The notes under the pieces are model-generated. The model was not told where the DNA came from and made no database searches. It saw only the letters and a program-made list of their open reading frames with translations. From positions 67,001 to 131,000 of the forward strand of contig NZ_VISI01000002.1 in the NCBI RefSeq assembly GCF_007827365.1: a stretch of DNA of 64,000 nt, in the 5' to 3' direction. Shown here piece after piece: positions 27,482-47,197 of this stretch. Made by a program: the position numbers and the translations under genes. The number at the start of each line of letters is the position of its first letter. Positions within the stretch are counted from its first letter, which is position 1. Source of the DNA: Olleya sp. Hel_I_94. Lineage in GTDB: Bacteria; Bacteroidota; Bacteroidia; Flavobacteriales; Flavobacteriaceae.

Positions 27482-28873
27482 ATGATTTATAACGATACAA
27501 TTGTAGCATTAGCAACCGCTTCAGGCGCAGGAGCAGTAGCCATTATTAGATTATCTGGTAAGGATGCTATAGCTATTGCAGACCGCTGTTTTGAGTCTGT
27601 AAAAAGTAATAAAACACTTTTAAACCAAAAAACACATACCATACATTTAGGACATATTGTTGATGACAAGCGTACTATAGATCAAGTTTTGGTTTCGGTT
27701 TTTAAAAATCCAAACTCGTATACAGGTGAAGACGTTGTAGAGGTGTCGTGTCATGGTTCTATTTATATTCAGCAAGAAATTATTCAATTGTTTTTAAGAA
27801 ATGGTTGTAGAATGGCTAATGCTGGAGAGTTTACTTTACGTTCATTTTTAAATGGGAAATTAGATTTAAGTCAAGCAGAAGCTGTGGCAGATTTAATTTC
27901 TAGTGATAATGAAGCGTCACATCAAATTGCGATGCAACAAATGCGTGGTGGTTTTTCTAGCGAAATTGCTAAATTAAGAGCAGAATTAATGAATTTTGCT
28001 TCTTTAATAGAATTAGAATTAGATTTTGCAGAAGAAGATGTGGAATTTGCAGATCGTACGCAGTTTCAGGTTTTAGTTGAAAAAATCACCTTTGTTTTAA
28101 AACGATTGATAGACAGTTTTGCTGTAGGAAATGTTATTAAAAACGGAATTCCTGTTGCTATTGTAGGAGAACCAAATGTAGGAAAGTCAACCCTTTTAAA
28201 TGCGCTTTTAAATGAAGAAAGAGCAATTGTAAGCGATATTGCTGGTACAACAAGGGATACTATTGAAGACGAGTTAGTTATTGATGGTATAGGCTTTAGG
28301 TTTATTGATACTGCAGGAATTAGAGAAACTAAGGATGTGGTTGAAAGTATTGGAATAAAGAAAACCTTTGAAAAAATGGAACAAGCCCAAGTGGTTGTGC
28401 TCCTTTTTTCTGCAGAAGAGTTTAAAACAGAAAGTAAACGACTAAAGGTAGAAATCGAAAAAATTAAAAATAGATTTCCATTGAAGCCACTTTTGATTAT
28501 TGCCAATAAAGTTGATACTTTAAATACAGAAGAATTAGATAGACTAAAGCTTCAGTTTGAAAATGTCCATTTACTATCCGCAAAATCTGGTCTTGGAGTA
28601 GAGGAGTTAAAAGCAAAACTGATTGGTTTTGTAAACACAGGAGCCCTTCGTAATAATGAAACAATTGTTACTAATACAAGGCACTATGACTCATTATTAA
28701 AAGCTTTTGAAGAAATACAGAAAGTAAAATATGGTTTAGAGTCTGGTTTGTCGGGTGATTTATTGGCAATAGATATTAGACAAGCCTTGTACCATTTTGG
28801 CGAAATTACTGGTGAAATCACTAGTGATGATTTACTAGGTAATATTTTTGCTAATTTCTGTATTGGCAAATAA
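27482..28873 (+). CDS. mnmE: tRNA modification GTPase
   Basis: Protein of 463 residues, full length. It has the N-terminal tetrahydrofolate-binding domain, a central GTPase domain (G1 GEPNVGKST at about 229-237, DTAG, NKVD) and the C-terminal FCIGK with its reactive cysteine. With MnmG it installs the carboxymethylaminomethyl group at wobble uridine of several tRNAs. The final 19 bases of the gene are the attachment site of the adjoining element, which restores the coding end exactly, so the gene stays intact. Confidence 0.97.
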   Translation: MIYNDTIVALATASGAGAVAIIRLSGKDAIAIADRCFESVKSNKTLLNQKTHTIHLGHIVDDKRTIDQVLVSVFKNPNSYTGEDVVEVSCHGSIYIQQEIIQLFLRNGCRMANAGEFTLRSFLNGKLDLSQAEAVADLISSDNEASHQIAMQQMRGGFSSEIAKLRAELMNFASLIELELDFAEEDVEFADRTQFQVLVEKITFVLKRLIDSFAVGNVIKNGIPVAIVGEPNVGKSTLLNALLNEERAIVSDIAGTTRDTIEDELVIDGIGFRFIDTAGIRETKDVVESIGIKKTFEKMEQAQVVVLLFSAEEFKTESKRLKVEIEKIKNRFPLKPLLIIANKVDTLNTEELDRLKLQFENVHLLSAKSGLGVEELKAKLIGFVNTGALRNNETIVTNTRHYDSLLKAFEEIQKVKYGLESGLSGDLLAIDIRQALYHFGEITGEITSDDLLGNIFANFCIGK

Positions 28874-28874
28874 A
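28855..28874 (+). repeat. attL core within the mnmE 3' end
   Basis: Twenty bases repeated at 47178-47197 with one mismatch. They encode the last residues FCIGK and stop of MnmE. The same codons are the known target of SGI1-type islands in enterobacteria. Confidence 0.88.
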
Positions 28875-28941
28875 TGGCTAAAAAACACTAAAACAAAATA
28901 AACTAAACTACAGTAAATCAATAGATTACGATTTTTAATTT

Positions 28942-28983
28942 AGACTATATTTTAATATATTTTATTAATTTATAGTCTTTTTT
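28942..28983 (+). terminator. Possible terminator inside the left end
   Basis: An 8-bp inverted repeat (28942-28949 with 28971-28978) spans a very AT-rich loop and runs into six T. It could end the mnmE transcript, or shape the integrase complex. Stem is weak. Confidence 0.45.
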
Positions 28984-29000
28984 GTACCTATTTTGTACCT
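28978..29000 (+). repeat. Left subterminal repeat, candidate integrase arm site
   Basis: Twenty-three bases containing two tandem TTTTGTACCT units. The same sequence with one change is at 47118-47140 in the same orientation. It lies 104 bases inside the attL core. Confidence 0.65.
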
Positions 29001-29025
29001 CGTTTGGTCTTTTTATTTATATTTG
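28993..29025 (+). promoter_or_regulatory. Candidate promoter of the element's regulator-integrase genes
   Basis: TTG (28993-28995), 22-base spacer and TATATTTG (29018-29025). The -33 part lies in the arm-like repeat, so integrase binding could affect this promoter. Confidence 0.5.
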
Positions 29026-29046
29026 AACCATAGGGCGAAATGATGG

Positions 29047-29106
29047 CACCTAATTACACCTAATTACACCTAATTACTCTTAATGCATCTTAAATACCCT
29101 TAATGA
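29047..29106 (+). repeat. Six 10-bp tandem units upstream of the zinc-ribbon/HTH gene
   Basis: Three perfect copies of CACCTAATTA (29047-29076) are followed by three degenerate copies CTCTTAATGC, ATCTTAAATA and CCCTTAATGA. The period is close to one helical turn. They lie between the candidate promoter and the start codon at 29139. Confidence 0.85.
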
Positions 29107-29138
29107 TGCAAAAAAAATAGGAGAAATTAATAGTTATA

Positions 29139-46093: not shown

Positions 46094-46101
46094 AGGAGAG
46101 C

Positions 46102-46794
46102 ATGAACAATAAAATTAAAATGACATGCGGTGGTACGTTTAATTGGTATGATCAGTGGGTTGTAATAAGTATTGACTTAATCGAAGCTTATGTAGAGCAA
46201 TGTGAAATATCAAATAGTTTAGCTATAAATGAATTTGAAAGATATAAAAAACAAGAAATAGAAGAGCACGAACATGGTGCAAAAATTTTTACACATTTTA
46301 GATTGATTGATGGGGCTACTTTTAATGCTAAAGATATAATGTATATTGAATTTCCTAAATTGAATAGACATTCAACGTTAGTTTTAATAATGAGTATGTT
46401 CGAGAAAACATTAAAAAATTTATGTGATAGAATTAATGTCTTGTTTGAACTAAATAAATCGTTTAAAAAAATACCAAAAGAGAGTTTACTTTCAAGTATA
46501 AAGACTTATTTATCAGAAGTAGCAGGGCTTCAATTTACTCATGAATTGGATGAGCAATGGAGCGATTTAATGTGTTTGCAATCTATTAGAAATAGTATTA
46601 CTCATAATTTTGGAAGATTTGAAAGAGGAACGAATTCTGTAACTGATTTTATCACAAAAAATAAAAATATAAGTCTAGCAGAAAATAGAGAGATTTATTT
46701 TAATCATGAATTTCTAAAGGATTTAATTCCTGATTTTAGAGCGTTTTGCATAGGGTTACAACAATCTATACGAGATAAGAATAATATTACTTAA
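46102..46794 (+). CDS. HEPN-domain-like protein (probable RNase)
   Basis: Protein of 230 residues, mostly helical. LQSIRNSITHNFG holds Arg163-x4-His168, the R-x4-6-H motif of HEPN ribonucleases. The preceding helices (HSTLVLIMSMFEKTLKNLCDRIN) match the four-helix fold. HEPN proteins often cleave RNA in toxin-antitoxin and abortive-infection systems. It overlaps no gene, lies directly after the PD-(D/E)XK nuclease, and the pair would form a two-gene unit. Whether the nuclease is effector, sensor or antitoxin is unknown. Confidence 0.75.
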   Translation: MNNKIKMTCGGTFNWYDQWVVISIDLIEAYVEQCEISNSLAINEFERYKKQEIEEHEHGAKIFTHFRLIDGATFNAKDIMYIEFPKLNRHSTLVLIMSMFEKTLKNLCDRINVLFELNKSFKKIPKESLLSSIKTYLSEVAGLQFTHELDEQWSDLMCLQSIRNSITHNFGRFERGTNSVTDFITKNKNISLAENREIYFNHEFLKDLIPDFRAFCIGLQQSIRDKNNIT

Positions 46795-46836
46795 AGGATG
46801 GAAACATATTTTTAAATATTGAATGATGCTTCATAA

Positions 46837-47028
46837 AGTTTTAGGTTTACGGAAGGTTGTAAAGATGAAAATAAATTTTTTTCTTTCTTGAAAGAAAGAT
46901 ACACGTCACAAATTGAACGTATTTTAATGTACGGTAGCAACGTTAAAGTAATTGAGCCAATTACTTTACAAGATAAAATAAAAGGAATTTATAAGGACGC
47001 TCAATCGCAATATGATTTAGATGCATAA
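46837..47028 (+). pseudogene. Remnant of the C terminus of a WYL-domain regulator
   Basis: An open frame from 46837 encodes FLKERYTSQIERILMYGSN and then VIEPITLQDKIKGIYKDA before a stop at 47026, typical of the end of WYL-domain transcription factors. Stops at 46813 and 46834 lie upstream and no start codon or HTH is present, so only a broken tail remains. WYL proteins often regulate defence loci, so a former regulator or an insertion scar is likely. Confidence 0.65.
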
Positions 47029-47117
47029 TATTTAAATTTAAAACCTACATTTGTAACAATTAAGGAGAAATTACAGGCGAAATTATTTTTCAGCCAAAAA
47101 AAAGTAAAATTTTAATT

Positions 47118-47140
47118 TTTTTTGTATCTATTTTGTACCT
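47118..47140 (+). repeat. Right subterminal repeat, candidate integrase arm site
   Basis: Same 23 bases as 28978-29000 with one change (C to T in the first unit), in the same orientation, 37 bases inside the attR core. Confidence 0.65.
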
Positions 47141-47177
47141 TATATCTTGTAAAGTGCTTATTTTACTCAATAAACAC

Positions 47178-47197
47178 TTTCTGTATTGGTAAATAAA
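47178..47197 (+). repeat. attR core
   Basis: TTTCTGTATTGGTAAATAAA, matching the mnmE end at 28855-28874 with one mismatch (C to T, a synonymous Gly codon change). It marks the right boundary, and chromosomal sequence resumes at 47198. Confidence 0.88.

Follow-up and report, generated by a model that had tools for sequence, protein, structure and literature searches.

Salmonella genomic island 1 (SGI1), a major drug-resistance island, and its relatives (the SGI1, PGI1, PGI2 and AGI1 clusters) occupy the 3' end of trmE/mnmE, and the available part of PMC11237444 gives the SGI1 cores as DR-L (TTCTGTATTGGGAAGTAA) and DR-R (TTCTGTATTGGTAAGTAA). The integrase of SGI1 has already been grouped with Bacteroidetes integrases, since the accessible text of PMC8138268 describes an IntCTnDOT subgroup (CTnDOT, NBU1 and SGI1) that occurs mainly in Bacteroidetes. 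Our literature search found no published statement that SGI1 Int and Bacteroidota integrases have mnmE as a common target. Here, we analyzed a 64-kb stretch of Olleya sp. Hel_I_94 (hereafter the window), which contains an element of about 18.3 kb at the same site. On the basis of our results, this element was probably put into the last 18–20 bp of mnmE by an integrase of an mnmE-specific, IntCTnDOT-kind family that includes that of SGI1, its target having been inherited from a common ancestral integrase.

The attachment site and the ends of the element

The mnmE gene (trmE/thdF; 27482–28873, forward strand) encodes an intact protein of 463 amino acids (TrmE_N, MMR_HSR1 and MnmE_helical domains; TIGR00450) that ends in ...IFANFCIGK, and its last codons form the attachment site. 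The pattern TTTCTGTATTGGYAAATAAA was matched only twice in the window even when three mismatches were allowed, both times on the forward strand, by the attL core TTTCTGTATTGGCAAATAAA (28855–28874) and the attR core TTTCTGTATTGGTAAATAAA (47178–47197); shuffled sequences contained 0.10 matches on average, and none of 100 shuffles contained two. The two cores, located by pattern search and by comparison with an empty site, are identical at 19 of 20 bases, with a single C/T difference. The unoccupied site was found in a member of the same genus (G002; MnmE 98.5% identical), in which the 18-base core lies at C5:91454–91471 and the sequence continues into that right of attR: C5:91505–93583 is 84% identical to window positions 47212–49300 (2.1 kb, right of the second core). 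This downstream match is separated from the 18-base core by 33 bases in G002 and by 15 in the window, and the two spacers align poorly. Immediately right of the element, the chromosome resumes with a gene (47230–47589, forward strand, 119 amino acids) whose counterpart lies directly 3' of mnmE in G002. The two cores, the empty site in a relative and the intact MnmE show that the end of mnmE was used as attachment site, as the original prediction had it on the basis of a 20-bp repeat at both element ends.

The predicted identity with the SGI1 site agreed with the published cores: of 18 bases, the attR core shares 17 with DR-R and the attL core 16 with DR-L, and in three genomes of the window's genus (G001, G003 and G004) the 18-mer ending mnmE is identical to DR-L. 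The insertion lies in the last 18 bp of trmE/mnmE, as in SGI1-family IMEs. The last nine bases of attL were GGGAAGTAA in 24 of 31 clade-A elements and the first nine took six forms, counts that cover occupied mnmE ends only and include many near-copies; the same pattern of a variable first and a constant last half is reported for SGI1 elements in the available portion of PMC9035990. Among 15 relatives with an intact-looking integrase and a fetched downstream stretch, 12 carried another core further downstream, deviating from the pattern at no more than one position, and three (G016, G003 and G321) had none there.

Near both ends are paired repeats that look like integrase arm sites: two copies of TTTTGTACCT spaced 11 bp apart on the left (28980–29000, forward strand), and TTTTGTATCT plus TTTTGTACCT at the same spacing on the right (47120–47140, forward strand). 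Outside clade A, 10 of 27 elements had a TGTACC pair versus none of 27 control stretches; within clade A, TTGTTGC occurred in 29 of 31 elements versus one of 31 controls. Neither motif was found in the four gammaproteobacterial elements, part of which have paired repeats near the core; the left end of SGI1 has only a pair that agrees at 6 of 9 bases when spaced 11 apart, and one that agrees at 7 of 9 when spaced 10 apart. An mnmE-like stretch near 47064–47090 was dropped from consideration, being short and resembling bases that also precede the left-end HTH_17 gene.

Integration may proceed as follows. The integrase would cut inside the TTYTGTATYGG core common to mnmE and the attP of the element, while its N-terminal arm domain would hold the element ends through the paired repeats 11 bp apart. 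Insertion would splice in a substitute mnmE tail (FCIGK and stop), so that this tRNA-modification gene stays whole, and excision is probably directed by an HTH_17 protein.

Gene content of the element

All genes of the element described here lie on the forward strand. The leftmost (29139–29498) encodes an HTH_17 protein of 119 amino acids with a Cys-rich N-terminus, which matches phrog_66 (excisionase and transcriptional regulator), has relatives in other elements and is a candidate regulator or excisionase. It is followed by the integrase gene and a 285-amino-acid protein (30637–31494) with no Pfam match and no tblastn relative in the other elements compared; at the equivalent position, the element of G282 has a 316-amino-acid ORF starting MDYLxIY. 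A second HTH_17 protein (31647–32009) is the best excisionase candidate; it resembles the product encoded just after SGI1 int (23% over 77 amino acids). The backbone further includes a 134-amino-acid ORF with a Cys-rich N-terminus (32039–32443; also in G276, G282 and G016), a 107-amino-acid ORF (32449–32772; also in G282) and a DUF5906/P4-primase-like protein of 400 amino acids (32769–33971; TIGR01613 below cut-off, phrog_1156; also in G282, G011 and G318).

The cargo includes anti-phage-type, defence-like genes. A type I restriction-modification locus has all three subunits, HsdM (34403–36025), HsdS (39083–40345) and HsdR (40380–43385), with a KAP-family NTPase (PADLOC PifA-like; 36029–39073) between hsdM and hsdS. 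Downstream are a 443-amino-acid protein with no Pfam match (43432–44763), a PD-(D/E)XK nuclease-like protein (PADLOC PDC-S26; 44900–46093) and a 230-amino-acid protein (46102–46794) that has no Pfam match and matches a HEPN model weakly (PADLOC RTasHEPN, E 1.6e-4). No relaxase family was found in Pfam scans of the 14 element ORFs or among the phrog matches, the 285-amino-acid protein and some small ORFs having no assignment, and no conjugation genes were recognised in the element.

The integrase family and the history of its target

The tyrosine integrase originally placed at 29508 does span positions 29508–30659 (383 amino acids) and has the three domains of the IntCTnDOT type, all above cut-off: an N-terminal arm domain (Arm-DNA-bind_5, PF17293), a SAM-like core-binding domain (Phage_int_SAM_5, PF13102) and a catalytic domain (Phage_integrase, PF00589). 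The integrases of CTnDOT and NBU1 have targets other than mnmE. For comparison, SGI1 Int was identified by published SGI1 primers, two of four of which matched at 20 of 20 bases next to mnmE and DR-L; for the remaining two, the SGI1 left-end piece (L347) contained no match. The two integrases are 29.2% identical across 380 amino acids (E 2.6e-54), and the domain order is the same in both and in two further trmE-island integrases, although the arm domain of SGI1 Int falls slightly below the Pfam cut-off (20.7 vs 22.6 bits). The window integrase is therefore a full-length homologue in the same family, outside the SGI1/PGI/AGI integrase clusters of the gammaproteobacterial group. This comes near one of the two outcomes named as refuting the original prediction, an integrase clearly orthologous to SGI1 Int, although at 29% identity "orthologous" would be too strong a word.

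Integrases of this type were present in 65 of 299 sampled genomes of the window's family (E <= 1e-40), and of 67 fetched relatives on the Bacteroidota side (E <= 1e-40), 58 had the C-terminus of mnmE upstream in the same orientation, which makes the end of mnmE a widely used docking site. The other nine loci comprised one at a contig edge and eight without mnmE despite available upstream sequence, two of them at dnaK. Several elements were stacked at the mnmE site in some relatives. We built a tree of 70 integrases, omitting 17 of 87 candidates (15 near-copies, L022 at a contig edge and the partial L033); L032, L170 and L184 had no sufficiently long open frame and were never candidates. All 47 mnmE-adjacent rows, SGI1 Int included, fell into one 62-row clade (support 87/92, not starred), and nearly every deep branch of it includes mnmE-adjacent integrases. 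In the window element itself, int follows the 3' end of mnmE in the same orientation, and the core is intact. In both phyla, mnmE is the prevailing known target of this clade. Known targets required two changes on the tree, mnmE being gained once and the target switched once, a count in which eight rows were scored as having none solely because mnmE was not seen upstream; with the 12 rows that lack a known target counted as non-mnmE, the number rose to 11.

Other searches contributed little. A 40-base query from two published SGI1 primers had no match in the E. coli collection, and no integrase was seen in the split mnmE-tnaC interval of five E. coli genomes examined of 60 listed matches. Among 80 viral loci examined of the matches listed for the core pattern, most appeared to be chance; a loose context test picked out five, of which four were convincing ends of mnmE. 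A search with E. coli MnmE found one viral contig, with no integrase after mnmE and, on our reading of its ORFs, a Mu-like phage nearby, and the window integrase found one weak viral relative. HMM scores as a link between SGI1 Int and the mnmE integrases were dropped in favour of the tree, because the dnaK-adjacent L354 and L189 scored as high and mixed rows had gone into the model.

Several readings of these data should be compared. It is hardly credible that the 20-bp repeat arose by chance or by local duplication of the end of mnmE and is no integration scar: the core is short and AT-rich, but the shuffle control, the 58 of 67 relatives with an integrase 3' of mnmE and the empty site in G002, which refutes it, all speak against this. 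The original prediction held that the element and SGI1 had arrived independently at mnmE. In the strict sense of an origin from unrelated integrases, the different phyla and the failure to recognise a common backbone gene outside the recombination module (by sequence, with the SGI1 left end only) would fit, yet full-length homology, common domain order, the common clade and the published subgroup, as far as the accessible text of PMC8138268 goes, contradict this claim and leave it very little probability.

Convergence within one family, in which the window and SGI1 lineages came from integrases of the IntCTnDOT type that had other targets, and reached mnmE separately because its FCIGK-stop end is so conserved, is less easily dismissed but still rather unlikely. 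The low identity of 29% is compatible with convergence, one subclade (L181, L189 and L354) did change its target to dnaK, the 12 rows whose target is unknown lie dispersed through the clade and would imply up to 11 changes if truly non-mnmE, and the AU test did not reject a tree in which the SGI1-type integrases lie outside those of the Bacteroidota side (p 0.118). However, mnmE-adjacent members occur on nearly all deep branches, known targets need a single gain, and two rows of unknown target (L350 and L360) are near-copies of mnmE-adjacent ones (L351 and L178).

Inheritance of the target is accordingly the reading we prefer: since the window integrase belongs to the same family as SGI1 Int, mnmE was most likely inherited and not found separately. 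One mnmE-specific integrase family would then span the window's phylum and the gammaproteobacterial trmE islands, SGI1 included, with a common ancestral integrase as the simplest source of the common target, and with backbones and cargo exchangeable around the integrase, the cargo here being the type I restriction-modification locus together with further defence-like genes. A wider proposal, for and against which we lean equally, is that a single mnmE-specific lineage, most diverse in Bacteroidota, kept its target across phyla as arm sites, backbones and cargo were replaced, and gave SGI1 its recombination module by transfer from Bacteroidota to Gammaproteobacteria. Our results link the SGI1 integration module to a large group of Bacteroidota-side elements that have been little described and can carry defence genes. 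They also offer a case, open to testing, in which an integrase family long keeps its chromosomal target while the surrounding element is replaced.

Comparison with known systems

The dusA-targeting integrases (available part of PMC4482086) are likewise a family aimed at a conserved tRNA-modification gene, but at its 5' end, whereas the window element uses the 3' end of mnmE; they are said to have no sequence similarity to SGI1 int in the portion of PMC8409611 at hand. Closer are the members of the IntCTnDOT subgroup, which, in the accessible text of PMC8138268, have arm, SAM-like and catalytic domains like those of the window integrase. The MGIVchHai6-type trmE islands (MobI groups A and B) have the same site and integrase family, and the integrase of one of them (L349) is 67.9% identical to SGI1 Int. 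Type I restriction cargo, as in the window element, is reported for MobI group B in the available part of PMC7449626. These islands differ in having another backbone, and no MobI was recognised in the window element.

The SGI1 family, in another phylum, has tra, mps, sga and rep genes and an integron, none of which was recognised in the window element. In the comparison with SGI1, which was made by sequence for its left end (L347) and by Pfam families for the rest, no family of the backbone (traN/G/H, mpsAB, sgaCD and rep) was found in Pfam scans of the 14 element ORFs, in agreement with the original prediction; outside the recombination module, the element is no SGI1-family island. What the two have in common is the trmE/mnmE 3' end, a nearly identical 18-bp core, a homologous integrase and an HTH_17-type gene beside int, and the stacking of several elements known for SGI1-related elements, in the part of the literature available, was also seen in relatives of the window type.

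Structure of the element and its insertion site in the genus

The original prediction placed a 20-base core at each end of the element, and both were found as described, at 28855-28874 (attL) and 47178-47197 (attR); the two copies differ at one base, and the left core forms the end of an intact mnmE gene. All named genes between the cores are located on the + strand. The front part consists of genes for HTH_17, the integrase (29508-30659), a 285-aa ORF, a second HTH_17, two small ORFs and a DUF5906 primase-like protein, whereas the cargo encodes HsdM, a KAP NTPase, HsdS, HsdR, an unknown protein, a PD-(D/E)XK protein and a HEPN-like protein. 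GC content was 29.5% within the element versus 31.3% in the remainder of the window, and no tRNA genes were detected in the window by ARAGORN. The type I locus is interrupted by the KAP-family NTPase gene (PifA-like, 36029-39073), which lies between hsdM and hsdS. The cargo ends on the right (44900-46794) with the PD-(D/E)XK protein (PDC-S26) followed by the protein with a weak HEPN match, and the two are possibly a two-gene defence system. Ahead of the right arm, an open frame with no evident start (46840-47029, C-terminus ...KDAQSQYDLDA) may be the remaining 3' end of a truncated gene.

Ten genomes of the genus, including that of the window, were compared. The anticipated empty site was observed in G002, which has one core and then continues into the sequence right of the window's attR core (84% over 2.1 kb, and 87% over 4.7 kb in a second alignment). 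Three genomes (G003, G004 and G009) have a related integrase 3' of mnmE, and in G001 mnmE and an integrase each lie close to a contig end, on two different contigs. In G006, the core occurs three times, 106 residues of the MnmE tail are repeated and an integrase remnant is present. No such integrase was found in the stretches fetched from G005 and G008; in G005, sequence resembling the window's downstream region is located ~27 kb from mnmE, so something may have inserted there. The sole pattern match in G007 (75% complete) was outside mnmE.

Distribution, targets and size of related elements

At E <= 1e-40, the family sample of 299 genomes gave 67 integrase matches in 65 genomes, and the phylum sample of 392 gave 48 matches in 41; in both searches, scoring was restricted to the 4-6 highest-ranking candidates of each genome. 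The loci retrieved were those of the best matches, 67 distinct loci in all from the genus, family and phylum searches. In 58 of them the MnmE C-terminus was upstream on the same strand, 159 to 1299 bases from the integrase match (median 593); the other nine comprised two dnaK loci, six without an assigned target and one contig edge. A subclade of the same family (L181, L189 and L354) occupies the dnaK 3' end in place of mnmE, an apparent target switch. The window's MnmE is 51% identical to that of Bacteroides finegoldii and 38% to that of E. coli, which together with the integrase type points to the sampled family and phylum being Bacteroidota. In B. finegoldii (L353, NZ_OY725936.1), an HTH gene and a related integrase come after mnmE, and a mobilization protein is encoded one gene further on; this record is filed as a plasmid, yet carries mnmE and an mnmE-site element, and is probably a chromosomal piece. 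In a human-gut contig filed as phage (L351, MT837961.1), the mnmE end is of a non-Gammaproteobacterial type, and the integrase shares 43% identity with the Vibrio trmE integrase.

Another core, deviating from the degenerate pattern at no more than one position, was present downstream in 12 of the 15 relatives that had a full-length integrase match and a fetched downstream stretch; nine of these relatives gave lengths of 8.5 to 33.7 kb, and G003, G016 and G321 had no second core within the stretch examined. The 8.8-kb element of G282 holds the front part with DUF5906 (the 285-aa ORF being matched by position only) and is thus probably the minimal element; the type I restriction matches of this genome are outside it. 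Type I restriction relatives were identified 3' of mnmE in G306, G072, G006, G011, G276 and G321, the right end being unsettled for some. Several mnmE-like cores on one strand were observed within 64 kb in G087 (L246-L249) and 41 kb in G023 (L250-L252), and in one pair in each genome the repeat reaches well beyond the core. No integrase of the window's type was found in the stretches fetched from these two genomes, whose multiple cores are likely to represent decayed or serial insertions.

Arm-type repeats and the attachment site

On the left, the window's TTTTGTAYCT repeats begin 124 and 135 bases beyond the start of the attL 18-mer; on the right, they begin 59 and 48 bases ahead of the attR 18-mer. 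None of 100 window shuffles contained two such pairs. Similar repeats are present at or near the same places in G276, G282, G072, G011, G215 and G226, some right ends having only one clear copy, and TTGTTGC repeats occupy the corresponding places in G004 and G009. Across 62 attL ends, the best pair of 9-mers spaced 11 apart matched at 7.39 of 9 positions, compared with 5.40 for shuffled sequence; scores at spacings 10, 12 and 13 were raised too (6.2-6.3), and near-copies weigh on these scores. For the four Gammaproteobacterial ends the scores were 7.25 (shuffles 5.08) at spacing 11 and 6.75 at spacing 10, whereas the end of SGI1 itself reached only 6 and 7, respectively, and neither named motif was found in the four ends. 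Thus, the scores are at most suggestive of a paired-repeat geometry in the Gammaproteobacterial elements.

The last nine bases of attL were GGGAAGTAA in 24 of 31 elements of clade A (the integrase subgroup with TTGTTGC repeats in most attL ends) and the first nine took six forms, as expected if the element supplies the 3' half. For SGI1, PMC2297512 places the exchange upstream of position 9. Tandem repeats of 10 bp (CACCTAATTA) occupy 29047-29086, after the left arm sites and before the HTH_17 gene; by eye, G276 and G282 have similar sequence at their left ends.

Relationship to SGI1 and Gammaproteobacterial trmE islands

In the literature that could be searched, which left out most subscription papers, mnmE was not found as a Bacteroidota integration site. 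In Gammaproteobacteria, 80 named mnmE loci were surveyed, these being the best of 585 confirmed ones; the core was present in 79 of these, six of which had <1.2 kb beyond it. A family integrase was located just 3' of mnmE in two of the best 80 loci (uncultured Vibrio and Aeromonas fluvialis). A third match among these 80, on the opposite strand in Mannheimia, appears XerC/XerD-like by reading. SGI1 Int was taken from a short record (stated host S. Kentucky) that contains the mnmE end, the left core DR-L and two published primers matching exactly; two more SGI1 primers of the same paper did not match this record even with 3 mismatches allowed. Two phage-labelled records (L347, OR850969.1; L348, OR845421.1) carry mnmE with the SGI1 left end.

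The integrase tree comprised 70 rows: 43 mnmE-adjacent rows from the window's phylum, 4 Gammaproteobacterial rows and 23 others (8 outside the main clade that lack an upstream mnmE, 3 next to dnaK and 12 with no known target). It had been proposed that the window element and SGI1 arrived independently at mnmE. This view was not borne out, as all 47 mnmE rows, the Gammaproteobacterial ones included, fell in one 62-row clade (support 87/92). The Gammaproteobacterial rows formed one group (100/100) adjoining that of L176, L177 and L187, which are mnmE-adjacent with a short spacer, and three rows without a known target (92/70). Two target changes were needed with known targets, and 11 if unknown targets were scored as not mnmE. 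Placement of the Gammaproteobacterial rows outside the other inner rows was not rejected by the AU test (p 0.118). Based on the tree and the change counts, the simplest reading of these sequences is that the target is shared through common descent, and either phylum may have been the donor.

SGI1 Int shares 67.9% identity with the integrase encoded by a MobI-carrying trmE island of E. coli, in line with the 67% published for the MGIVchHai6 integrase, and 29.2% with the window integrase over 380 aa. The arm, SAM-like and catalytic domains were all above cut-off in the window integrase and in those from E. coli and Vibrio; in SGI1 Int the SAM-like and catalytic domains were above it and the arm domain slightly below (20.7 versus 22.6 bits). 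In section 11 of PMC8138268, SGI1 Int is assigned to the IntCTnDOT subgroup alongside Bacteroidetes integrases.
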